Shown here one piece after another: positions 4,847-16,330 of a stretch of 64,000 nucleotides of DNA (position 1 is the stretch's first letter; every line of letters starts with the position of its first letter). A program made the position numbers and the translations under genes. The stretch is taken from NCBI RefSeq assembly GCF_002286735.1, contig NZ_NRTA01000001.1, positions 1 to 64,000 on the forward strand, in the 5' to 3' direction. The DNA comes from Leptolyngbya sp. BC1307. Its GTDB lineage: Bacteria; Cyanobacteriota; Cyanobacteriia; Phormidesmidales; Phormidesmidaceae. Below the pieces are notes generated by a model. The model searched no databases and was not told the DNA's origin. It saw only the letters and a program-made list of their open reading frames with translations.

Positions 4847-5671
4847 CTAGTAGTCTCTCCCAATGGTGCGATCAAGCTGATCGAGCAGGGTATCTATGCG
4901 CCGTGCTTTCTTGGCGAGCTTGTCCATATCGGGCGGTTCTTCGGTAGCGCTTTGAGCAAGTTCAACGCTGGCCCGTACTAGGCTGAAAATGGGGCTGTAG
5001 AGAGCGGGTTGGCCGCTGCCGCCGCGCAGTTTTTTGGCGATACTGGTCATCTCATCGAGTAAGAGCGTCCAGTCCTGAGCTGCTTTGGCAGGTGCTTTTT
5101 TCGCCTTGGCAGAGTCGAATGAAGGATCGAGGGTTTCGATGATGGCATCGTTATCTTTGGCAATGAGATAAATCTCTTTGAGAGAGGACCGAATGCCGCT
5201 ACCGAAAGAAACGTTGTAAAAGCCCAAAAGACCGTCGTGAACAATTCTGCCTTTAAACGGGAGTAGAACAGCTTGTGCGCACAAGGGTAGGTTGCGCCTG
5301 TCAATCATGTCAGATAGTTCGTCGCTCAGCCCTGAGATGCCGTAAACGTTTTCTTTGCTGTCTATGAAAATGCCGTGCTTTTTGAGCAGTCGCTCGACGT
5401 AGAATTTATCTTTAACAAAGGTTTTCCAGCCGCTGACAATCGCTAATTCTTCCTGAGTGAAGTCGGCTGGGTTCTCTTGAATAAACTGATCGATTAGCTC
5501 AGAGTGGTTAAAAAGGTAGTCTCTCACCTCTACTTTTTCTCTCATAGAGGTGGTGGTATAGGCAGCAAAGCTTTTGACTTTGGGCAAAACCTGACCCTGC
5601 TTCTGGGCATACCACTGGAGTTGCAGCGTCAGTTTCATGAACAGATCGACATCGGCGGGGCTAAGCTTCAT
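4847..5671 (-). CDS. Uncharacterised protein, last gene of the restriction/Septu-like operon
   Basis: A 274-aa protein I cannot assign to a characterised family. The N-terminal 100 residues look helical and charged. A conserved-looking core follows around residues 110-180 (NVYGISGLSDELSDM, LLPFKGRIVHDGLLGFYN, SGIRSSLKEIYL). The C-terminus is a helical, Lys/Ala-rich tail. There is no signal peptide or membrane segment. It overlaps the end of hsdR by 11 bases, so it is almost certainly translated from the same transcript. Position suggests an accessory role in the defence island, but there is no direct functional evidence. The gene ends flush against the convergent flavoprotein gene. Confidence 0.8.
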   Translation of the reverse strand: MKLSPADVDLFMKLTLQLQWYAQKQGQVLPKVKSFAAYTTTSMREKVEVRDYLFNHSELIDQFIQENPADFTQEELAIVSGWKTFVKDKFYVERLLKKHGIFIDSKENVYGISGLSDELSDMIDRRNLPLCAQAVLLPFKGRIVHDGLLGFYNVSFGSGIRSSLKEIYLIAKDNDAIIETLDPSFDSAKAKKAPAKAAQDWTLLLDEMTSIAKKLRGGSGQPALYSPIFSLVRASVELAQSATEEPPDMDKLAKKARRIDTLLDQLDRTIGRDY

Positions 5672-8600
5672 GAGCGGATGGGGAGGTTTCGGTTGAGAGA
5701 CGTTTGTAAACTTCTGAACTTAAATAGTCGGAGACGAGTTTTTGAAAGGCATTGTCGTTCATATACTGGGCAAAAATTGCTTCGTTTTGATCGACTCGCT
5801 CGACAAATAGAGATTGTAATACTTGCTTGAATAATAGGCCAAAGCTGTCTTGTGAATTGGCTTTGGCAGCTTGCTGCAGTTCTTCAGAATTTGTAGCGGT
5901 TTCTATGAGCTGGTCGAAGAAGAGCTGATCGGCCTGGTTGAAGTCAGCGCCGAAGCGGTCGTTGATGAGGTCTATGAGCTGGGAGAGCTGGACGGCGTTT
6001 TCTTTGACCATCGCGCTGCCGACTGCCTTGGGGCCATCCAGAGCATCGGCATAGCCTTGATTGAGGTCGATGGAGCCTTCGCTGATTTTTTGGAGGCGGT
6101 AGTACTCTAGCTGAACGTCGTCATCAAAGTTGTATTGGGGGGCGCTTGAGCGCTTGGGCAACTTAGCACTCAAGTGCCGCAAAAAGACATACTGTTTTTC
6201 TAAGTCAGAGTCTTGATAGGGAATGACCTGACTGAGGAAGGCATAGAGATTGCGAAAGGCGGTGAGCTGACCGCGCCAGAGAGTAGCTTCTGCTTCGTTT
6301 TCAGTTTGAAAGTCCACGAAGCGCTCTACCGCCGGATCTAGGGCCGCGTTCATGGCCTGATGGTCGGTAGGGCTTTGCTTTTGCTTGGGCTTAAAGTAGG
6401 TGATGCAAAAGCGTTCGATTTCTTCGGGGAGATGGATGCCTGCCTGGGTTAAGTCGGCGGCGAGCTGGTAGAGCTGATCGGGGCTAGCTTCTTCACCGAT
6501 TTCAGCGCCTTCATAAAACTGTTTGAAAGCTTCGCGAATTTCTTCTCTATCATTTACAAAGTCAAGAACGAAGGTGTCTTCTTTGAGCGGGTGGGTGCGA
6601 TTGAGCCGGGAGAGGGTTTGAACGGCTTGAATTCCGGCCAGGCGGCGATCAATATACATGCTGTGTAGCAGGGGCTGATCGAATCCGGTTTGATATTTTT
6701 CGGCGACGAGGAGTACCTGATAGCCGTCGGTGGCGAACTGGTCGGGGAGTTCTTTTTCACGAATGCCGTTGTTCATGGCGGTTTCGCTGTAGGTGACGCT
6801 GGAGAGTTTGTCGTCTTCGACGATGCCAGAGAAGGCGACCAGGGTTTTGATGGGATAGCCTTTTTCGCGGATGTATTTGTCGAAGCCTTGTTTGTAGCGG
6901 ACGGCTTCCAGGCGGGAGCCCGTGACGACCATGGCTTTGGCTCTGCCGCCGATTTTGTGGCGGGTGACGGTGTTGAAGTGCTCGACGATGACTTCGGTCT
7001 TTTGGGCGATGTTGTGGGGGTGCAGGCGCATGAAGTTGACCAGGGCGCGGGCGGCGGCTTTGCGCTCTACGTTGGGGTCTTCGGCAGAGTTTTGCAGGAG
7101 TTTGTAGTAGGTTTTGTAGGTAACGTAGTTGCGAAGTACGTCCATGATGAAGCCTTCTTCGATGGCTTGGCGCATGGTGTATTGATAACGGTTTGTGCTG
7201 CCAAAGACTTTGAGGGTTTTGTGTTTGGGGGTGGCGGTGAAGGCGAAGAAACTGAGGTTGGCTTGATGCGACCGGGCTGCCATACTCCGAAAGAGTTCTT
7301 CCATATTTTCCTGCCCTTCTTCAGCGGCCTGCTGCTGCGCTTGGGCCTGAAGCTGTTCGCCGCCGAGGACGCTTTTTAGCTCGGTGGCGGTTTCGCCGGA
7401 TTGGGAGCTGTGGGCTTCGTCGATGATGACGGCGCAGCGGCGGGTAGGCAGGAGACCGCTGCCCTGCTGCTGGCGTTCTTCGGCGAGCTGGAGGAGTTGG
7501 CGGGTGACGAAGGGAAATTTTTGTAGGGTAGTGATGATGATGGGGGTGGCGTTTTCGAGGGCTTGGGCGAGCTGTTTAGAGTCTTTGTCAATTTTTTGGA
7601 CGACGCCCTGGGTATGGTCGAACTGGTAGATGGTGTTTTGCAGTTGCTGATCGAGGACGCGGCGGTCAGTGATAACGATGACGCTATCGAAGATGCGTTC
7701 GTCCTGGTCGGTGTGGAGGGAGGCGAGGCGGTGGGTGAGCCAGCCGATGGTGTTGCTTTTGCCGCTGCCTGCGGAGTGTTCGATCAGGTAGTTGTGGCCG
7801 GGGCCTTCGGCTTTAGCGGCTTGCTCCAGGGCGCGGACGGTTTGGAGCTGATGGTAGCGGGGGAAGATCAGGGTTTCTTTTTTGAATTTGCGGCCTGTGT
7901 CGTCGTGTTTTTCGTCGATTTGCAGATGCAGGAAGCGGGCGAGCAGGTCTAGGAAGCTGTCTCGCTGGAGGATGGTTTCCCAAAGGTAGGCGGTGCGGTA
8001 GGTGCGGCCTGCTGGGTCGGGCGGGTTACCGGCTCCACCGTCGTGGCCTTTGTTAAGCGGCAGAAAGTGGGTGGCGGGGCCTGCGAGGCGGGTGGTCATC
8101 CAGACGGTTTCGGTATCGGCGGCGAAATGGACGAGAGTGCGGTGTTTGAAGGTGAAGAGGGGGTCTCGGGGGTCGCGATCGTGCCTATACTGCTCAATCG
8201 CATCCTGCGCGGTAGATCCGGTCTGAGGATTCTTGAGTTCCAGGGTGACAAGCGGAATCCCGTTGAGACTGAGGGTAAGGTCGATGATGCCGTTTTTGGC
8301 CTGTGATCCTGCGTCGTAAGTGGCTTTTTTCGATTTTTTGGGGGCTTTGCGGTAGTGGAGCTGGCGGGTGACGGTGACCTGATTGGCCTGGTAGCTGGTT
8401 TCGAGATCCGCGTTGAGGCTATGGGCGGCTTTGAAGGTGGCGATCCGGAGGGTGCGGCCATAGCATTTGAAGCCGTGACGTAGGACGGTGAGACACCCGT
8501 AGGTGTCGAGCCATTTGCACAGGTCGGCGAGGATTTGGCTGGCGGTGTTGTTGCCAAGGAGGTTGTGCAGGCGTTCCCATTCTTTGGGTTGGGTTTGCTG

Positions 8601-8741
8601 AATGAAGCGGATGGCGGTGTCTGGGAAGAGGGATTTTTCGGGGTCGTATTGTTTGCTGGGTAGGGCGCTGTAGCCGTTGGCGAGCAGGTGAGCTTCGATG
8701 ACGGATTCAAAGGCAGCTTCGGTATGGGAGGCTGCTTTCAT
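5661..8741 (-). CDS. hsdR: Type I restriction enzyme, R subunit (HsdR)
   Basis: The 1026-aa motor and nuclease subunit of a type I restriction-modification complex. It translocates and cleaves DNA lacking the HsdMS methyl mark. The N-terminal nuclease domain has a PD-(D/E)xK core (NGIIDLTLSLNG followed by LVTLELKN). The SF2 helicase motifs are intact: Walker A EHSAGSGKSNT, motif II IIDEAHSSQ, motif III FAFTATPK and motif VI QTLSRLNRTHP. The C-terminal helical domain is present and the length is normal, so the enzyme looks functional. It overlaps the upstream HNH gene by 4 bases and the downstream unknown gene by 11, indicating translational coupling. Confidence 0.95.
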   Translation of the reverse strand: MKAASHTEAAFESVIEAHLLANGYSALPSKQYDPEKSLFPDTAIRFIQQTQPKEWERLHNLLGNNTASQILADLCKWLDTYGCLTVLRHGFKCYGRTLRIATFKAAHSLNADLETSYQANQVTVTRQLHYRKAPKKSKKATYDAGSQAKNGIIDLTLSLNGIPLVTLELKNPQTGSTAQDAIEQYRHDRDPRDPLFTFKHRTLVHFAADTETVWMTTRLAGPATHFLPLNKGHDGGAGNPPDPAGRTYRTAYLWETILQRDSFLDLLARFLHLQIDEKHDDTGRKFKKETLIFPRYHQLQTVRALEQAAKAEGPGHNYLIEHSAGSGKSNTIGWLTHRLASLHTDQDERIFDSVIVITDRRVLDQQLQNTIYQFDHTQGVVQKIDKDSKQLAQALENATPIIITTLQKFPFVTRQLLQLAEERQQQGSGLLPTRRCAVIIDEAHSSQSGETATELKSVLGGEQLQAQAQQQAAEEGQENMEELFRSMAARSHQANLSFFAFTATPKHKTLKVFGSTNRYQYTMRQAIEEGFIMDVLRNYVTYKTYYKLLQNSAEDPNVERKAAARALVNFMRLHPHNIAQKTEVIVEHFNTVTRHKIGGRAKAMVVTGSRLEAVRYKQGFDKYIREKGYPIKTLVAFSGIVEDDKLSSVTYSETAMNNGIREKELPDQFATDGYQVLLVAEKYQTGFDQPLLHSMYIDRRLAGIQAVQTLSRLNRTHPLKEDTFVLDFVNDREEIREAFKQFYEGAEIGEEASPDQLYQLAADLTQAGIHLPEEIERFCITYFKPKQKQSPTDHQAMNAALDPAVERFVDFQTENEAEATLWRGQLTAFRNLYAFLSQVIPYQDSDLEKQYVFLRHLSAKLPKRSSAPQYNFDDDVQLEYYRLQKISEGSIDLNQGYADALDGPKAVGSAMVKENAVQLSQLIDLINDRFGADFNQADQLFFDQLIETATNSEELQQAAKANSQDSFGLLFKQVLQSLFVERVDQNEAIFAQYMNDNAFQKLVSDYLSSEVYKRLSTETSPSAHEA

Positions 8742-9460
8742 TTTTCAGACCGCTTCGATTTTGATTGGTTCTTAGCTTTAGAGTCTCTAATATTTTCCAG
8801 CTTATCTACTCGCCGTTCTAAAACTTGCTTTAGTACAAAACAAAAGGGTTCTAGTCGGTTCCCTTCCTCGACTTTCAGCGATTTTAGTCGTTTTCGAGCC
8901 TCTTTCAGGGTAATTGTATTATTTCTACCAAGCGTTCCTTGAATACGAGCTTTACGTTCGCCTTTTAGATACCGATGATTGAGCCCTAATTGTTCGATAG
9001 TGGTTTCAGCCGCAAAATCATTTTTGTCAATAGCTCTCACTTCACCTGTCGCTCTATATTGAAAGCGAGTTTCGCTAGTTCGGTCTAGTGGTGAAACAAA
9101 CAAAGGACTTTCCTCTTTACTAGGCCAGTGGTCTTTTTGCTCTGCGCCATAAGGTGTTTTACGTTTTGGGTTGGGTGCTGGGTAGCAGGCGACGACATTC
9201 CCGTAGGATACGGTTTCGTCTGGAGTGCAGTGTTTCTGAGGTTTGACGTGTTCGATATGGCATTTATTTTCATCAATACCAATGCCAGTATAAGCACAGA
9301 GCCAGCCTTGTTCTTTTAACAAGAGAACGACCAATGCAGTTATCACAGTTGAATCTTGGCGCAGAAGATCATAACCAAAGTTGATATCAGTGTTATATTT
9401 CGAGCGCCATTCAGTCAATTCACGAGGTTCACTCGTCTTCTGTATCCATCTCATCTGCAA
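8738..9460 (-). CDS. HNH endonuclease of the TIGR02646/PtuB type (Septu- or retron-associated)
   Basis: A 240-aa protein with an HNH-type core, WLCAYTGIGIDENKCHIEHV, followed by the family's further conserved stretches (YGNVVACYP, SPLD, LGLNHRYL, R-rich). In Septu systems and in some retrons the PtuB-type HNH nuclease works with a PtuA-type ATPase. Here the ATPase gene lies directly upstream and overlaps it by 32 bases. An alternative start at M3 (9454) shortens this slightly. The 3' end overlaps hsdR by 4 bases. No retron reverse transcriptase or msr/msd RNA is visible nearby, so Septu is the better analogy. The nuclease assignment is by motif; activity is inferred. Confidence 0.85.
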   Translation of the reverse strand: MQMRWIQKTSEPRELTEWRSKYNTDINFGYDLLRQDSTVITALVVLLLKEQGWLCAYTGIGIDENKCHIEHVKPQKHCTPDETVSYGNVVACYPAPNPKRKTPYGAEQKDHWPSKEESPLFVSPLDRTSETRFQYRATGEVRAIDKNDFAAETTIEQLGLNHRYLKGERKARIQGTLGRNNTITLKEARKRLKSLKVEEGNRLEPFCFVLKQVLERRVDKLENIRDSKAKNQSKSKRSEK

Positions 9461-10802
9461 GTGCCTCCATGTTGTTAATACTGGCTTCTAGCCGTATGGC
9501 TTCATCATCGTCACCGCGAATGGTATTGCGGTATGTCGCAAGATACTCTCGGGCAAGATCTAGTTCGCCGTCTTCAAGAGCGTCCTCAATATTATCAATT
9601 TGATCTTGTGCCTCAGGATTGCGTGAATCCGTGTCCATTATGTGCTCTAGGATCCAGCTAGAGTCAAGCCCAAATCCTTGTAGACCTTCTTGAACAACGT
9701 TGACATGTCCGTTTTTTCGATTCAACAAAATAATTCCGTTGGGATCCACTTCTCCAATTACCAATGGGGAATGAGTTGTCGCGATGAACTGACAATTCGG
9801 GAAAGTGTCGGTTAATCTTTTGACAATAGTGCGCTGCCAGCGAGGATGGAGATGTAACCCAATCTCATCAATTAGAACGACAGCTTCCCCCTCAAGTGGA
9901 TTATCCAGTTCTGGATTGGCCTGTGATAGCCGACGTGCAAGGTCTAACACCAGCGCTAGCATACCGCGCTCGCCATCGGATAATTGGCGAACATCAAGCG
10001 TGATACCATCTTTGTTAATTAGCAGCGTAGTGTTTTCTATCGTTCTTTTACGACCTTCTTTGTCCTCAGAGACATAAGATTCTTTGTCTACTCTGACATC
10101 TGTACAGGTATCCAAAATAAGGGCAGTAGCTTCGCTTAAAACTTGCAAATGCCGTTTTGCAGTTTCGCTCTCTTCAGAAAGGCTTTTTTGGACAAGCCAC
10201 CAGCTCGAAAACTCTGTAAGCATAAGGCTACGATGCTCTAAGGAATCTGCGAAGGCATTAGTTGGCTTACCTTTGCTGGTATTGGCTAATGAGCGGTAAG
10301 GTGAAAAATAGACGGCTAGCGGTTGCCGTTTTAGCCTTCTAGTGTTGGTTTTTAAGCTGCTAAGGCTGGGCGTTAGCTTTTGAATATCCTCGGCCTCGTA
10401 GCTATATCCAGACTCTCGCAGTCTTCTTTCTTCTATGCGCCTTTCCCTGCTCATATTTTGAATGTCTTTTTCGATATTTTCTTTAGATTCACTAACAGAC
10501 CCAAACTTTGCTCTCGACTGTTGTACTAAGTAGCGAAAGTCAGTATCAAAGGCTTCAAATCTCAGCTCAGCAGACAACGTATTTTGGCTGACACTTATAT
10601 CACTAGGTTCAAAGGTCAGCTTGCTTTTTCTAGCAGCGGTTATCTTCGGGAGGCATTGAGCTAGTAGAAACCTTAGCGTATCTAAAATTGTCGATTTGCC
10701 GACTCCGTTTACGCCTACGATCAGGTTAACGCCAGGTTGGAAGGCTAATTCGGCTTGTTCAAAAGCTCTTACGTGAGTGAGGATGAGGCGTTTGAGTTGC
10801 AT
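9429..10802 (-). CDS. PtuA-like AAA/ABC-class ATPase (Septu-like)
   Basis: A 457-aa SMC/RecF-like ATPase. Walker A is at residues about 30-38 (GVNGVGKST). The ABC signature-like motif is QLSDGERG. Walker B is VVLIDEIGLHLHP, with the switch His in ATTHSPL. A charged coiled-coil segment (about 105-150, rich in Glu and Arg) sits between Walker A and the signature, as in overcoming-lysogeny-defect/Septu ATPases. The C-terminus is strongly acidic. It starts two bases after hsdS ends and runs into the HNH gene by 32 bases. This pairing is the hallmark of PtuA-PtuB. In known systems the ATPase senses infection or nucleotide state and controls the HNH partner. Confidence 0.85.
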   Translation of the reverse strand: MQLKRLILTHVRAFEQAELAFQPGVNLIVGVNGVGKSTILDTLRFLLAQCLPKITAARKSKLTFEPSDISVSQNTLSAELRFEAFDTDFRYLVQQSRAKFGSVSESKENIEKDIQNMSRERRIEERRLRESGYSYEAEDIQKLTPSLSSLKTNTRRLKRQPLAVYFSPYRSLANTSKGKPTNAFADSLEHRSLMLTEFSSWWLVQKSLSEESETAKRHLQVLSEATALILDTCTDVRVDKESYVSEDKEGRKRTIENTTLLINKDGITLDVRQLSDGERGMLALVLDLARRLSQANPELDNPLEGEAVVLIDEIGLHLHPRWQRTIVKRLTDTFPNCQFIATTHSPLVIGEVDPNGIILLNRKNGHVNVVQEGLQGFGLDSSWILEHIMDTDSRNPEAQDQIDNIEDALEDGELDLAREYLATYRNTIRGDDDEAIRLEASINNMEALADEMDTEDE

Positions 10803-10804
10803 AG

Positions 10805-12106
10805 CTAAGCGGCGATTTGAAGTTGGCCAGTGACAGCGGCAGAGATAAGGGATGTACGGCGTTCTTGGAGAAGGCCGATAGCACTCTCGGTAATCGAAAG
10901 AAGGCTATCCAATCGAGTCAAGGAGCTTTGTAGATATTGCAGTATCTCCATCTGAGTTTCATTAGAAGGTAGTATGACAGGCAATTCTTTGAGATTAGTG
11001 CCTGAGATTGAAGCAAGATTAGTACTTTGCTTTGCACGGGATTCAAAATAGGCTTTTGCAAAATTGGAGCTAGTGAAAGTTGTTAACCAATAGGGAGAAA
11101 CACTATGGCACCTTACGGCAAAAACGTGGTTTTGATGTAGGCAGGGCTCAATCGAGCTATCCCAGACTGCCCCACGTCCTAGCTTGTCAGCATCGCCTCC
11201 CTCATTCATCAGAACGTCTTCTTTTTGTAAACTAAATGACTCTACCTCTTCAGGCAATACTTCTATGCTGGTTACACGCTTCAAGTCTAAATAACCGTCT
11301 TGAACATTGGCAACACGAAGGTATGGCACCTTTATGGTTTCCCGATTTCCTAGATTTCGACCTTTTGTAATACCTGTTTTTACTTCTGCAAGAAAATTCA
11401 GGCTCACAATTTCCCAATCTCTAGGAATTTCCCCTAACCACTCGATGCCCGAATCCTTCATGGGCACATCCCCCCTCACCCCACGGGTCACCGCCTGGGT
11501 AATCATCGCCCGCCGCTTTTCAGCCAGAAGGGTTAGCAAGCGTTGTTTGGCAGCAATGAGCGCATCCAGTTTAGCCGTCTCGCGATCAAGGTAATCAGCA
11601 ATTTTGCGCTGCTGAGCTATTCCGGGTACAGAGACAAATTGAGACAGATATTCTTTAGCATCTAGATTTTGAATTCCGGTTGTTTGCTTGATATAGGGTA
11701 TAACAGCTCTACTCGCCCATAAAGAATAGAACAGATAAGTTCCGAACCGCGAATATAAAGAGGCTTGACGCGGACGCAAAGCCTCTAGAAAATTTGAGCA
11801 GAGTGCAGGTTCGTTAAGATCAAACGATATTACGCGACCTACTGGCTGTTTTTCACCTCCCCCAGATCTCTCTAGAATAAGATCTCCCTTTTTTAACTGT
11901 CTTGAGTTGATTTCTTGCTCGCTATACTTCCGCCTAGTTAGGTTATTGACTTTATGACGTAGCTCGTGCGTCACAAAGTCAGCAGCCCGTATACATACGA
12001 TACCCTCGTCATCATCCGCTTCTTCTCCCCATGCGCCGAGGGCTCTTTCAGAAAATAGAAACTTCAGCGGGATTTCATTCCAAGATGAGTTCTTTGCAAT
12101 AATCAT
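10805..12106 (-). CDS. hsdS: Type I restriction-modification specificity subunit (HsdS)
   Basis: The 433-aa DNA-recognition subunit that directs both methylation and cleavage. It has the usual two target-recognition domains, residues about 1-150 and 215-380. Each is followed by a coiled-coil conserved region: IADYLDRETAKLDALIAAK then MEILQYLQSSLTRLDSLL. The repeated 'LL.EKRR..I..AVT.G' ends of the two halves (EKRRAMITQAVTRG and ERRTSLISAAVTG) show the internal duplication. A bipartite recognition sequence is expected but cannot be predicted from sequence. The start overlaps the hsdM stop by 4 bases (ATGA). Confidence 0.93.
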   Translation of the reverse strand: MIIAKNSSWNEIPLKFLFSERALGAWGEEADDDEGIVCIRAADFVTHELRHKVNNLTRRKYSEQEINSRQLKKGDLILERSGGGEKQPVGRVISFDLNEPALCSNFLEALRPRQASLYSRFGTYLFYSLWASRAVIPYIKQTTGIQNLDAKEYLSQFVSVPGIAQQRKIADYLDRETAKLDALIAAKQRLLTLLAEKRRAMITQAVTRGVRGDVPMKDSGIEWLGEIPRDWEIVSLNFLAEVKTGITKGRNLGNRETIKVPYLRVANVQDGYLDLKRVTSIEVLPEEVESFSLQKEDVLMNEGGDADKLGRGAVWDSSIEPCLHQNHVFAVRCHSVSPYWLTTFTSSNFAKAYFESRAKQSTNLASISGTNLKELPVILPSNETQMEILQYLQSSLTRLDSLLSITESAIGLLQERRTSLISAAVTGQLQIAA

Positions 12107-14187
12107 CCAATCACCTCCCGCAGCAAATGAATAATCTTTTCTTCTACCTCCCGCAAGTCCGCATCAATCTCCTCTAACGGACGGGGCGGCGTATACTCAT
12201 AAAAATACCGATTAAAGTTAATCTCGTAGGCACTGCGAATCTTCTGCCCATCCGCCCAGGCATCCCCCACATGCGGCTCTACCTCCTCACAAAAATACCG
12301 CACCACCTCATCTTTAAGCTGCACATTCTCAAAATCTCGCAGCTTCGTATCCGGCTCATACATCCGCTCTAGCTTTCCATCCGCCGCCAGAAACCAGCCC
12401 CACACCCGCGCATCCGGCTCCCGCTTCGCCTTCCGCTCCTTTGCAATTACCGCCGCCGCCTCCGGCTCCTTCTCGGTAAACACATCCCGAAACAGCTTTT
12501 GCTCACTCTTTTTCCACTTACTTTCCCGCTGCTTCAACAGCCGCTGCATCAGCGCATCAAACTCATTCCAATCGGTTCTAGGCGACCTGCCCAACTGCTT
12601 ATCTATCGCCTGCACATCGTCTAGCAAATGCGGCGCAGCATCTAAAAAATCGCTCTTACGCTCCAAAGACATTTCATACAGCAGCCGCAAAGGCCGCTCA
12701 ATCGGCACCCGGTTATAGCCAAAGTCTTCATTGTCAAAGAGCTTACTTGTCTCCGTCTCCACAAACTTGCCATACTCCCGCACCGTAATCGCAATATCTT
12801 CTGCACCCATTTTGCGCCGCTTATCGCCCAAGCTACGCCGCATCGCCTGCCACCGCTCCCGCGCATCAATTAACTGAATCTTCCCTTTGCGATGCTTCTG
12901 CTTGCGGTTCGTCACTACCCACACATAGGTGCCAATCCCCGTGTTATAAAACATCTGCTCCGGCATCGCTACAATCGCCTCTAGCCAGTCATTCTCAATC
13001 ACCCACTTACGAATCTCACTCTCACCGCTGCCCGCCCCGCCAGTAAACAATGGCGACCCATTAAACACAATCGCCAGCCGCGACCCATTCTTTTTTTGCT
13101 CCGGCGCATAGGGCTCAAACTTGCTAATCATATGCTGCAAAAACAACAGCGAGCCATCATTCACACGTGGCAACCCCGCCCCAAACCGCCCCGCAAACCC
13201 GCGCCGGTTATGCTCTAGCTTTACATCCTTATTCTGCTTTTTCCAATCCACCCCAAACGGCGGATTCGCAATCAAATAGTCAAAGCGGCCATTCGTCAGC
13301 GGGTCATCTGAGGGAAACTGATCGTCAGTCAGCGTATCGCCATAGCGGATGTCGCTCTTTTCGTTGCCCTTCATCAGCAGGTCGGAGGCCGCGATCGCAT
13401 AAGCTCTCGGGTTAAAATCCTGCCCAAACACATAAAGATTCGCCTGCTTCTTGTCGCCATTGGGCCGACGCAAATAATTTTGAGCCTCTGCCAGCATCCC
13501 ACCCGTACCACAGGCCGGATCTAGCATTTTACGAATCACCGGCTGGGTGAGAATATCGTCATCCGGGTCAAATAAAATATCTACCATCAGCTCAATCACT
13601 TCACGCGGGGTAAAGTGATCGCCTGCCGTCTCATTCGCTGCCTCGTTGAAGCGTCGAATGAGATTTTCAAACAGCGACCCCATTTGACCGTTGCCTACCG
13701 CATTAGGGTGCAGGTCAATATCACAAAACTTAGAGACCACCAAATAGAGAATATTGGCCTCTCGCATTTTCTCGATTTCAGCGGTGAACTCAAACCGCTC
13801 AAAAATCTCTCTAACATTCTGAGAAAAGCCGTTGATATAGTCCGTCAGATGCCGATCAATATTATTCGGGTCGCCCTTTAACCCGCCCTTGCGTTTCCCA
13901 GCGCTGCCATCTTCACTCCCTTCAAAACTAAAAGGCGAATGATTGTGAAATCGCTGACCCGCAATGCTATTCAGCACCGGATCTAAAATAGACTCAGCGG
14001 TTTGCTTGTTTTTACGCCTTTCGTATTCTGCCAGCACCTGCGCCTTAGTCGGAGCCAGCACACAGTCAAACCGGCGCAGCACCGTCATCGGCAGCATCAC
14101 CCGCTCATACTGCGGAGGACGATACGGCCCGCGCAGCAGGTCGGCAATTTGCCAAATAAAATTTTCGAGCTGCTGCTGATCGGCCAT
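12103..14187 (-). CDS. hsdM: Type I restriction-modification N6-adenine methylase subunit (HsdM)
   Basis: A 694-aa methyltransferase subunit. Residues about 10-150 form the HsdM N-terminal helical domain. The AdoMet-binding motif I is DPACGTGGML and the catalytic motif IV is NPPFG (YLIANPPFGVDW), defining an N6-adenine methylase. The C-terminal 150 residues are charged and likely contact HsdS or HsdR. It is the first core gene of the defence operon; hsdS follows with a 4-base overlap. The start ATG at 14187 lies 102 bases below a small unknown gene in the same direction. Confidence 0.95.
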   Translation of the reverse strand: MADQQQLENFIWQIADLLRGPYRPPQYERVMLPMTVLRRFDCVLAPTKAQVLAEYERRKNKQTAESILDPVLNSIAGQRFHNHSPFSFEGSEDGSAGKRKGGLKGDPNNIDRHLTDYINGFSQNVREIFERFEFTAEIEKMREANILYLVVSKFCDIDLHPNAVGNGQMGSLFENLIRRFNEAANETAGDHFTPREVIELMVDILFDPDDDILTQPVIRKMLDPACGTGGMLAEAQNYLRRPNGDKKQANLYVFGQDFNPRAYAIAASDLLMKGNEKSDIRYGDTLTDDQFPSDDPLTNGRFDYLIANPPFGVDWKKQNKDVKLEHNRRGFAGRFGAGLPRVNDGSLLFLQHMISKFEPYAPEQKKNGSRLAIVFNGSPLFTGGAGSGESEIRKWVIENDWLEAIVAMPEQMFYNTGIGTYVWVVTNRKQKHRKGKIQLIDARERWQAMRRSLGDKRRKMGAEDIAITVREYGKFVETETSKLFDNEDFGYNRVPIERPLRLLYEMSLERKSDFLDAAPHLLDDVQAIDKQLGRSPRTDWNEFDALMQRLLKQRESKWKKSEQKLFRDVFTEKEPEAAAVIAKERKAKREPDARVWGWFLAADGKLERMYEPDTKLRDFENVQLKDEVVRYFCEEVEPHVGDAWADGQKIRSAYEINFNRYFYEYTPPRPLEEIDADLREVEEKIIHLLREVIG

Positions 14188-14802: not shown

Positions 14803-15385
14803 ATGGCTGCAATTATCCCTCACTTGATGGCGATCGCTGAGCAACTCCGCTTAGCGATCGTGAGTACTGCTCACCTGTGGATACCGATTGTTATGGCGCT
14901 GATCGGCCTAAAGCTGACTGGCCAGCGCTGCTTTCGTCAGCGTTGGGGACGGCGGATTAAGTGGTTGCCTCATCCCAAAAATCGCATTGGCACGCTGCTC
15001 TACTTTCACGGCGCGGATCTCAATATTGGCTTTAATGTCGCTCAGGCTTTTTGGCTCAGACAGCTGGGCTTTAGCGTTTTGCTAGCGGAGTATCGGGGCT
15101 ATGGCCTGAGTTGAAGGCGGCTTTTCCTCAGAAGCCTCGCTGTATGGAGATGCTGAGGCAAGGCTGACTTACCTCACGCAGGAGCGCGGTATCCAGCCAG
15201 AGGAGATTTTTGTGTATGGGCATTCGCTTGGGGGAGCGATCGCCATCGATCTGGCTGCCCCCCCAACCTGGCCGGAATCATCGTCCAGAATTCGTTTACC
15301 TCAATGGCAGACAGGGTAAGCTGAAGCACTAAAACACCGCTATCTGCAGAGCTATCGGTTAATCCAGGTAACCAACCTAATCTAG
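14803..15385 (+). pseudogene. Broken alpha/beta hydrolase gene
   Basis: The first 103 codons encode an N-terminal membrane anchor and the start of an alpha/beta hydrolase (IGTLLYFHGADLNIG, LLAEYRGYGLS). An extra T near 15111 creates a stop. The next frame continues the fold with GGFSSEASLYGDAEARLTYL and the nucleophile elbow VYGHSLGGA. A seven-C run near 15261 shifts the frame again, after which LAGIIVQNSFTSMAD is readable, followed by a TGA and further stops. At least three lesions argue for real decay rather than one sequencing error. The intact gene would be a membrane-anchored serine hydrolase of about 280 aa. Confidence 0.8.
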
Positions 15386-15505
15386 TTCAGCGTTGGGCGA
15401 TTTATCAACAAATGCAATATCCACAGTGCCGTCAATACGTGCCGCCAATACAGAGATGAACGGTTTTATCTGTACAGAGTGCGCGTTCGCTAGCCTTTCT
15501 GGCAT

Positions 15506-16330
15506 CTACCAAGGTTTTTGTAGAAAATTAGAAACTATCTGAGAGTAGGTGTTTGGCGCTTCTCTATGAATGTTATGACCGCACTCGCAGGCTTTAAGAA
15601 CAGCCTGTGTTGCTCTATTTCGTTGGTAGTGAGCAAGCATACTACGGTTGATAATGGCAAACTTATGATCTAGTGTGCCGACCAGCAGCAAAAGGGGGCT
15701 ACTGATATGGGAGAGCTGGTGCCAAAGTGAGGGCTGTCGTCCGGTGCTGAAACCACGTAGCGCATAAGATAGTTCGATAGGATCATTGGCTTGACGGCAT
15801 CGGAGCATAACCTCGTAGTGCTCTGGAAAATTTTTGAGACTTAGGAAGAGAGGGTTGGTGTACCACTGCGTTAAGAAGTCAGAGAGAGACATCGTTTCTA
15901 GCTGGTGGGCGATCGCCTCGTCCTTCTTCACTCGCTGTCGGCGTTCTGCAGCCGTTTTCAGCCCCGGCGAAGCTGATTCTAAAACCACCCGCCTGAAGCG
16001 CTCGGGAAAATGACAGACCAGGTACAGTGCCAACCGTCCCCCCATCGAATAGCCCAACAAATGGGTTCGAGTAATACTGAGGTGATCGAGTAGGCTCAAG
16101 AGAGTTTTAGTCGTTGTCGGAAAGGTATAGCTGCCAGGGGCTGTCAGCGTTTGGCCGTGGCCGGGTAGATCGGGTGTGATGCAATAGAAGTGTTCGGAGA
16201 GCGCGGGTAAAGTCGCAGCGAAATCCAGGTGGCTACCGAGAAATCCATGCAGGATTAAAAGGGGCGGATCTGTGGCCTTTCCGGCAGTCGTATAATAGAG
16301 GGTATGGTTTTCAGTCGTGAGACGGGGCAT
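15506..16330 (-). CDS. menH: 2-succinyl-6-hydroxy-2,4-cyclohexadiene-1-carboxylate synthase MenH
   Basis: A 274-aa alpha/beta hydrolase fold enzyme that eliminates pyruvate from the MenD product in phylloquinone synthesis. Features are the oxyanion region LHGFLGSHLDF, the nucleophile elbow LLGYSMGGRLAL, an Asp in the LVGTLDHKF loop and the catalytic His in CGHNIHRE. Sequence alone cannot separate MenH from other small hydrolases, but it lies three bases after menD and behind menF in one operon, which makes the assignment strong. Phylloquinone is the A1 cofactor of photosystem I. Confidence 0.9.
   Translation of the reverse strand: MPRLTTENHTLYYTTAGKATDPPLLILHGFLGSHLDFAATLPALSEHFYCITPDLPGHGQTLTAPGSYTFPTTTKTLLSLLDHLSITRTHLLGYSMGGRLALYLVCHFPERFRRVVLESASPGLKTAAERRQRVKKDEAIAHQLETMSLSDFLTQWYTNPLFLSLKNFPEHYEVMLRCRQANDPIELSYALRGFSTGRQPSLWHQLSHISSPLLLLVGTLDHKFAIINRSMLAHYQRNRATQAVLKACECGHNIHREAPNTYSQIVSNFLQKPW

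Follow-up and report, generated by a model that had tools for sequence, protein, structure and literature searches.

The gene for PrrC lies between hsdS and hsdR. In the EcoprrI-PrrC system (prrABCD), an ABC-ATPase nuclease module is built into a type I restriction-modification (R-M) operon (PMC3874165). Defence pairs are also found at this position, including DarTG2, between hsdS and hsdR in the DarTG2-RptR island of enteropathogenic Escherichia coli (EPEC) (PMC12255303), and TgvAB of Vibrio cholerae VPI-2, which sits between hsdR and hsdS and protects independently of HsdR activity (PMC11411939). That defence modules occupy the hsdS-hsdR slot is recognised (PMC12255303). As PrrC depends on the Hsd complex and TgvAB works without HsdR activity, location alone is known with both modes of action. 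Septu, a pair formed by the ATPase PtuA and the HNH nuclease PtuB, has been described elsewhere. Stand-alone Septu EcB88 is abortive, cleaves tRNA-Tyr and requires its Walker and HNH residues (PMC13096335), and retron PtuAB likewise degrades tRNA-Tyr (PMC11555353). Septu embedded in Hma has also been published (PMC8565338, PMC12255303); the cassette is of the same type, but its host is a helicase-methylase-ATPase system and not type I R-M.

Here we describe a Septu-like ptuA-ptuB pair between hsdS and hsdR of a type I R-M operon in the cyanobacterium Leptolyngbya sp. BC1307. The operon lies in the window, by which we mean the whole stretch of 64,000 nucleotides analysed (contig NZ_NRTA01000001.1, positions 1 to 64,000). 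Embedding between hsdS and hsdR is known from PrrC, DarTG2 and TgvAB, while the presence of Septu there, and the exchange of the cassette separately from the hsd genes, appear to be new. A literature search returned no description of Septu in a type I R-M operon, with an earlier mention in the key preprint on embedded defences, that of Payne et al., 2024 (doi 10.1101/2024.01.29.577857), being possible. The genes are as follows.

12103-14187, minus strand: hsdM, type I N6-adenine methyltransferase subunit, 694 aa (HsdM_N 1.1e-22, N6_Mtase 2.6e-57; PADLOC MTase_I 5.6e-256)
10805-12106, minus strand: hsdS, specificity subunit, 433 aa (Methylase_S 9.1e-15; PADLOC Specificity_I 1.7e-95)
9429-10802, minus strand: ptuA-like ABC-type ATPase of Septu, 457 aa (PADLOC PtuA1 1.5e-116; AAA_21)
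8738-9454 from ATG, or from TTG 9460, minus strand: ptuB-like HNH nuclease of Septu (PADLOC PtuB1 3.6e-65)
5661-8741, minus strand: hsdR, restriction and translocation subunit, 1026 aa (HSDR_N 3.8e-13, SWI2_SNF2 4.5e-23)
4847-5671, minus strand: sixth gene of no assigned function, 274 aa, without a Pfam, PADLOC or NCBIfam match

The pair has the features of a type I Septu: a PtuA-family ATPase and a PtuB/TIGR02646 HNH protein, adjacent on the same strand and without a reverse transcriptase. The PADLOC PtuA1 and PtuB1 models are matched over nearly their full length, and ptuA and ptuB overlap as well as adjoin. In PtuA, the Walker A motif (GVNGVGKS, 30-37), the signature (LSDGE, 274), Walker B (VVLIDE, 308) and the H-loop (343) are intact, as are HIEH (68-71) and N88 in PtuB, where H71 and N88 are invariant across an alignment of 9 PtuB sequences. 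TIGR02646 scores 54.7 bits on PtuB, above its cut-off of 52.15. Among PDB sequences, those nearest to the ATPase are PtuA chains from solved structures of retron I-A and Septu (1.8e-38 to 1.4e-27), and PtuB had no match. An identification made earlier from the DNA letters alone (the sequence-only reading) as a Septu-like pair within a type I operon is thus borne out. The pair differs from other PADLOC type I Septu in standing within an hsd operon, and in belonging to a PtuA clade seen only there. Retron I-A (Ec78/Eco7, Septu type II) shares the PtuA/PtuB effectors, but the window contains no reverse transcriptase, the only RVT_1 match of the genome being on another contig (contig 20), and matches to the NCBIfam retron PtuA/PtuB equivalogs fall under their cut-offs. 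The lack of a retron reverse transcriptase had also been read correctly from the sequence, and a retron effector was rejected since no reverse transcriptase is nearby.

The surrounding operon holds hsdM, hsdS and hsdR together with their catalytic motifs intact: DPACGTGG (223) and NPPF (308) in HsdM, and ELKNP (168), GSGKS (325) and DEAH (441), the nuclease and helicase motifs, in HsdR. TIGR00348 (hsdR) scores 199 bits on this HsdR against its own cut-off of 284, and the protein is therefore a divergent HsdR. The type I operon looks active, and the Septu cassette is complete. The genes abut closely, with 4 bases of overlap between hsdM and hsdS, a gap of 2 between hsdS and ptuA, 4 bases of overlap between ptuB and hsdR, and 11 between hsdR and the sixth gene. 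The coordinates, common strand and junctions reported by the sequence-only reading for all six genes were recovered; its TTG start for the HNH gene, which gives a ptuA/ptuB overlap of 32 bases, is the part we would change. The position of that gene stands, but ATG 9454, with an overlap of 26 bases, is the likelier start, because it is preceded by GGAG and all homologues start M-R-x-I or M-K-x-I/L. The 26-base overlap also occurs in a cyanobacterial relative (L053). The overlaps suggest that the genes are translationally coupled, and hsdM-hsdS-ptuA-ptuB-hsdR may be carried on one transcript.

The order hsdM-hsdS-ptuA-ptuB-hsdR, first noticed in this one strain, extends far beyond close relatives and is therefore not a peculiarity of it. 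It was found at least in a cyanobacterium of another family (L053), on a conjugative plasmid from Ketogulonicigenium vulgare, an alphaproteobacterium (L078; junctions -4, -4, -14 and -1) and in two IMG/VR contigs (L136 and L137). Identities of these four to the window are 64–76% for HsdM, 67–73% for HsdR, 31–35% for HsdS, 41–55% for PtuA and 31–55% for PtuB. Among 94 relatives, genus and family included, no PtuA exceeds ~44% identity, which rejects close kinship as the cause of the conservation, and the operon therefore looks horizontally acquired. Neither plasmids, searched for near-identity to the window operon, nor viral contigs, scanned for PtuB, gave a match. Related orders were seen on an Enterobacter plasmid (hsdS-hsdM-hsdS-ptuA-ptuB-hsdR, then an SprT-like gene), in Candidatus Thiomargarita (hsdM-hsdS-ptuA-ptuB-hsdR) and in Aeromonas australiensis (hsdM-hsdS-ptuA-ptuB); E. 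coli genomes matched solely the hsdR part of the Enterobacter version. HsdM and HsdR of Enterobacter and Thiomargarita are from a different family, the Enterobacter proteins being 30% (HsdM) and 26% (HsdR) identical to those of the window. To judge from these sequences, the same order arose independently in the unrelated type I families of Enterobacter and Thiomargarita.

A tree of 57 PtuA proteins gives the same picture of repeated association. The five PtuAs of the window type group in a single clade (100/100) that has hsd-embedded members only, and those of Enterobacter, Thiomargarita and Aeromonas are scattered among unlinked PtuAs, such that the well-supported branches require the hsd label to change at least 6 times. 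Two of the labelled cases were looser: L097, whose placement is uncertain owing to long branches, and L040, in which other genes stand between hsdS and ptuA. Most Septu pairs examined in cyanobacteria have no hsd linkage, and hsd embedding is a minority arrangement among Septu pairs.

L078 and L137 show that the cassette has a history of its own. Their HsdM, HsdS and HsdR proteins are 85%, 83% and 90% identical, yet PtuA is only 39% and PtuB 31% identical. Nucleotide identity is 0.71–0.84 outside the cassette and 0.36–0.58 inside it, with the break running from the ATGA at hsdS/ptuA to the ATG of hsdR. Over the pairwise identities of the five operons, HsdM follows HsdR (r 0.91) and PtuA follows PtuB (0.78), whereas PtuA does not follow HsdR (-0.29). 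HsdM and HsdR together support the topology ((window,L053),L136,(L078,L137)), for which the PtuA/PtuB topology is rejected by the approximately unbiased (AU) test (p 5e-43); PtuA and PtuB support ((window,L053),L078,(L136,L137)), for which the hsd topology is likewise rejected (p 6e-4). The decisive conflict between topologies, together with breakpoints at gene borders, therefore indicates that ptuA-ptuB moves as a unit and is replaced within a conserved hsd frame. Replacement of PtuAB amid Hsd proteins of 83–90% identity also argues, indirectly, against a PtuAB interface finely tuned to one Hsd enzyme.

The contents of the slot were surveyed in ~31 operons of the window HsdR family, drawn from cyanobacteria, plasmids and viral contigs and including a few near-duplicates. 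Septu is present between hsdS and hsdR in all six operons with HsdR at least 66% identical (the window counted), and in 0 of ~25 with HsdR at 56% identity or less, where the slot is empty or otherwise filled. In L097, which belongs to the first group, the Septu is of another PtuA/PtuB lineage (PDLC00278 1.1e-111, PDLC00315 5e-82), with a HigB toxin gene after it. The fillings in the second group are diverse: DarT-DarG with an IrrE-like peptidase-domain gene in L151 (5537-8989), which comes from IMG/VR and is related to the arrangement of DarTG2 in EPEC; the TIR candidate PDC-S35 in L152; PIN genes in L098 and L101; the PADLOC candidates PDC-S14 and PDC-S11 in L110 and PDC-S18 in L111; and unknown genes in others. 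Contig 8 of the same genome as the window carries another type I operon (L175:4839-14031), whose slot holds a Uma2-like gene, an ATPase/DUF4276 pair (PADLOC HEC-01, 1.3e-199 and 1.6e-63) and a PIN gene. In the window, an intact type I operon is split exactly at hsdS/hsdR by a complete defence module that recurs and is exchangeable. The slot probably serves as a cassette site, where Septu alleles and defence modules of other kinds replace one another. In two further loci, L138 and L139 (4989-10779), hsdM-hsdS precede a chimeric ATPase, which matches window-type PtuA over its first ~90 residues (52%), and a 1472-aa open reading frame (ORF) with a ResIII domain; PtuB and an HsdR of the window family are absent.

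From the sequences, and by analogy with the modules already known from this slot, we lean towards reading the window system as an embedded, modular second-line defence, in which two layers would be produced from one transcript. HsdMS would mark self DNA and HsdR would cut unmarked invading DNA, with PtuAB kept inactive by its own controls. Where restriction fails, the PtuAB nuclease would stop the infected cell, its target presumably being tRNA or DNA. Embedding would give co-expression, fixed dosage and joint transfer. PtuAB would play this second-line role independently of the Hsd proteins. The independence of TgvAB from HsdR activity supports a modular reading; both TgvAB and DarTG2-RptR are defence pairs between hsdS and hsdR, although of other effector families, and no RptR-like gene was noted at the window locus. 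It had been suggested from the gene order that Septu may be coupled to the type I system, for example firing when HsdR is blocked or when unmodified DNA is cut. We find coupling of PtuAB to HsdR unsupported, the cassette having been exchanged independently of the hsd genes. Two points nevertheless weigh against the modular second-line reading. Septu occupies the slot in each of the six operons whose HsdR is at least 66% identical, despite swapped alleles, and a purely independent passenger would be expected to be absent from some of them or to have given way to something else. PrrC, the nearest precedent in architecture, is moreover held latent by the Hsd complex (PMC3874165, PMC2610378).

These points lead to the strongest of the alternatives, which we consider unlikely, namely a guard resembling PrrC. 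HsdRMS would bind PtuAB and keep it latent until a phage anti-restriction protein of the Ocr, Stp or ArdA type disables the complex. The slot matches that of prrC in prrABCD, where the type I complex sequesters PrrC until T4 Stp frees it (PMC3874165, PMC2610378), and PtuAB, like PrrC, combines an ABC ATPase with a nuclease function able to cleave tRNA (PMC11555353, PMC13096335). A slot filled by Septu alone in the HsdR subfamily of at least 66% identity speaks for some functional link, and the dedicated PtuA clade known solely from hsd operons and the recurrence in unrelated hsd families point the same way. A guard bound to its enzyme sits poorly with the 39% and 31% identities of PtuA and PtuB beside Hsd proteins 83–90% identical, and with the lack of hsd linkage in most Septu pairs. 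The proteins also differ: PrrC is a single chain that includes an anticodon-nuclease domain and whose latency depends on Hsd, whereas the window has two genes and an HNH nuclease, and its PtuA has no match to the AAA_13 domain (PF13166, at 0.001) that PrrC-type single polypeptides combine with a C-terminal anticodon nuclease. Slightly more doubtful again is a narrower form, in which one HsdR subfamily would have the dedicated Septu branch as its standing guard. PtuAB would sense type I inhibition or action in the manner of PrrC and be kept in the slot across phyla, with its alleles swapped, perhaps in escape from phage inhibitors of Septu.

It is improbable that Septu is a recent or neutral insertion at a permissive site, merely hitch-hiking with the operon. 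The slot is permissive in related operons and the GC of the cassette is unlike that of hsdM and hsdR (GC at third codon positions is 60% in hsdM and 67% in hsdR, against 40% in hsdS, 41% in ptuA and 35% in ptuB), but motifs are intact in all parts, the arrangement recurs across phyla with full occupancy of the slot in the closest HsdR group, and the label changes on the PtuA tree imply repeated independent associations. Least probable is sequential action, in which HsdR, by translocating on or cutting unmodified DNA, would leave ends or nicks or deplete ATP locally, and PtuAB would be switched on as a result. The motifs of HsdR, a motor driven by ATP, are intact, and Li and colleagues reportedly found in 2024 that ATP inhibits PtuAB in vitro. 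Septu is also found with other DNA-acting defences (BREX, Hma and GmrSD), and an E. coli Septu PtuAB is reported to target nicked DNA (PMC11555353). Stand-alone Septu works without HsdR, however, and embedded TgvAB needed no HsdR activity.

The sixth gene had been counted into the same run. Its overlap with hsdR holds but its membership of a conserved module does not: it is absent from the other hsdM-hsdS-ptuA-ptuB-hsdR loci, and its homologues, which stand alone or beside VapBC-like genes, have different neighbours, so that it was rejected as a sixth component. The gene is a neighbour of the module, not a part of it, and its product is a rare protein. Homologues of ~30% identity were seen on haloarchaeal plasmids, beside a UPF0175-PIN pair, and in Ruminococcus, beside an IS66 transposase. 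A single-sequence AlphaFold model of the protein was poor (pLDDT 53). Upstream of the operon, window positions 14803-15520 hold what appears by eye to be the remnant of an alpha/beta-hydrolase-like gene, a 103-aa ORF ending in a stop and then frame fragments, which is possibly the scar of the insertion. The neighbours of menD differ among genus relatives, and no empty site can therefore be defined.

Several other Septu loci came to light. On Rhizobium rhizogenes pC6.5e (L086), the order helicase-ptuA-ptuB-DUF1156 methylase-ATPase places Septu inside a Hma-like system. In L067 (G018 contig 52), a BREX operon encloses a Septu pair, with PglZ-BrxL on one side and, on the other, a PglX-like methylase region that also contains a 1096-aa reverse-transcriptase ORF. 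In L112 (8146-11764, G076), ptuA-ptuB is followed, with a 36-base overlap, by a GmrSD type IV restriction gene, and in L113 (G093) by an ORF of similar size that is a GmrSD candidate by size only; these loci would pair Septu with a modification-dependent nuclease, the L113 member as a candidate. Two cyanobacterial Septu loci (L114 and L055) have a Pfam-assigned calcineurin-like phosphoesterase gene of ~305 aa just upstream of ptuA, and ORFs of about that size precede ptuA in L062, L064, L071, L116 and L118.

To treat the pair as an oddity understates its setting, as the slot is already recognised for defence modules (PMC12255303). Septu can be added to the few modules known to be built into type I restriction operons. 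One HsdR subfamily retains it in the slot across phyla, and the exchange of this defence cassette, with breaks precisely at the borders of genes, is of a clarity seldom seen. K. vulgare L078 and L137, whose Hsd proteins are near-identical and whose PtuAB differ widely, form a natural pair. The finding sets a testable choice, between a Septu embedded for convenience and a Septu embedded as the guard of a restriction enzyme.

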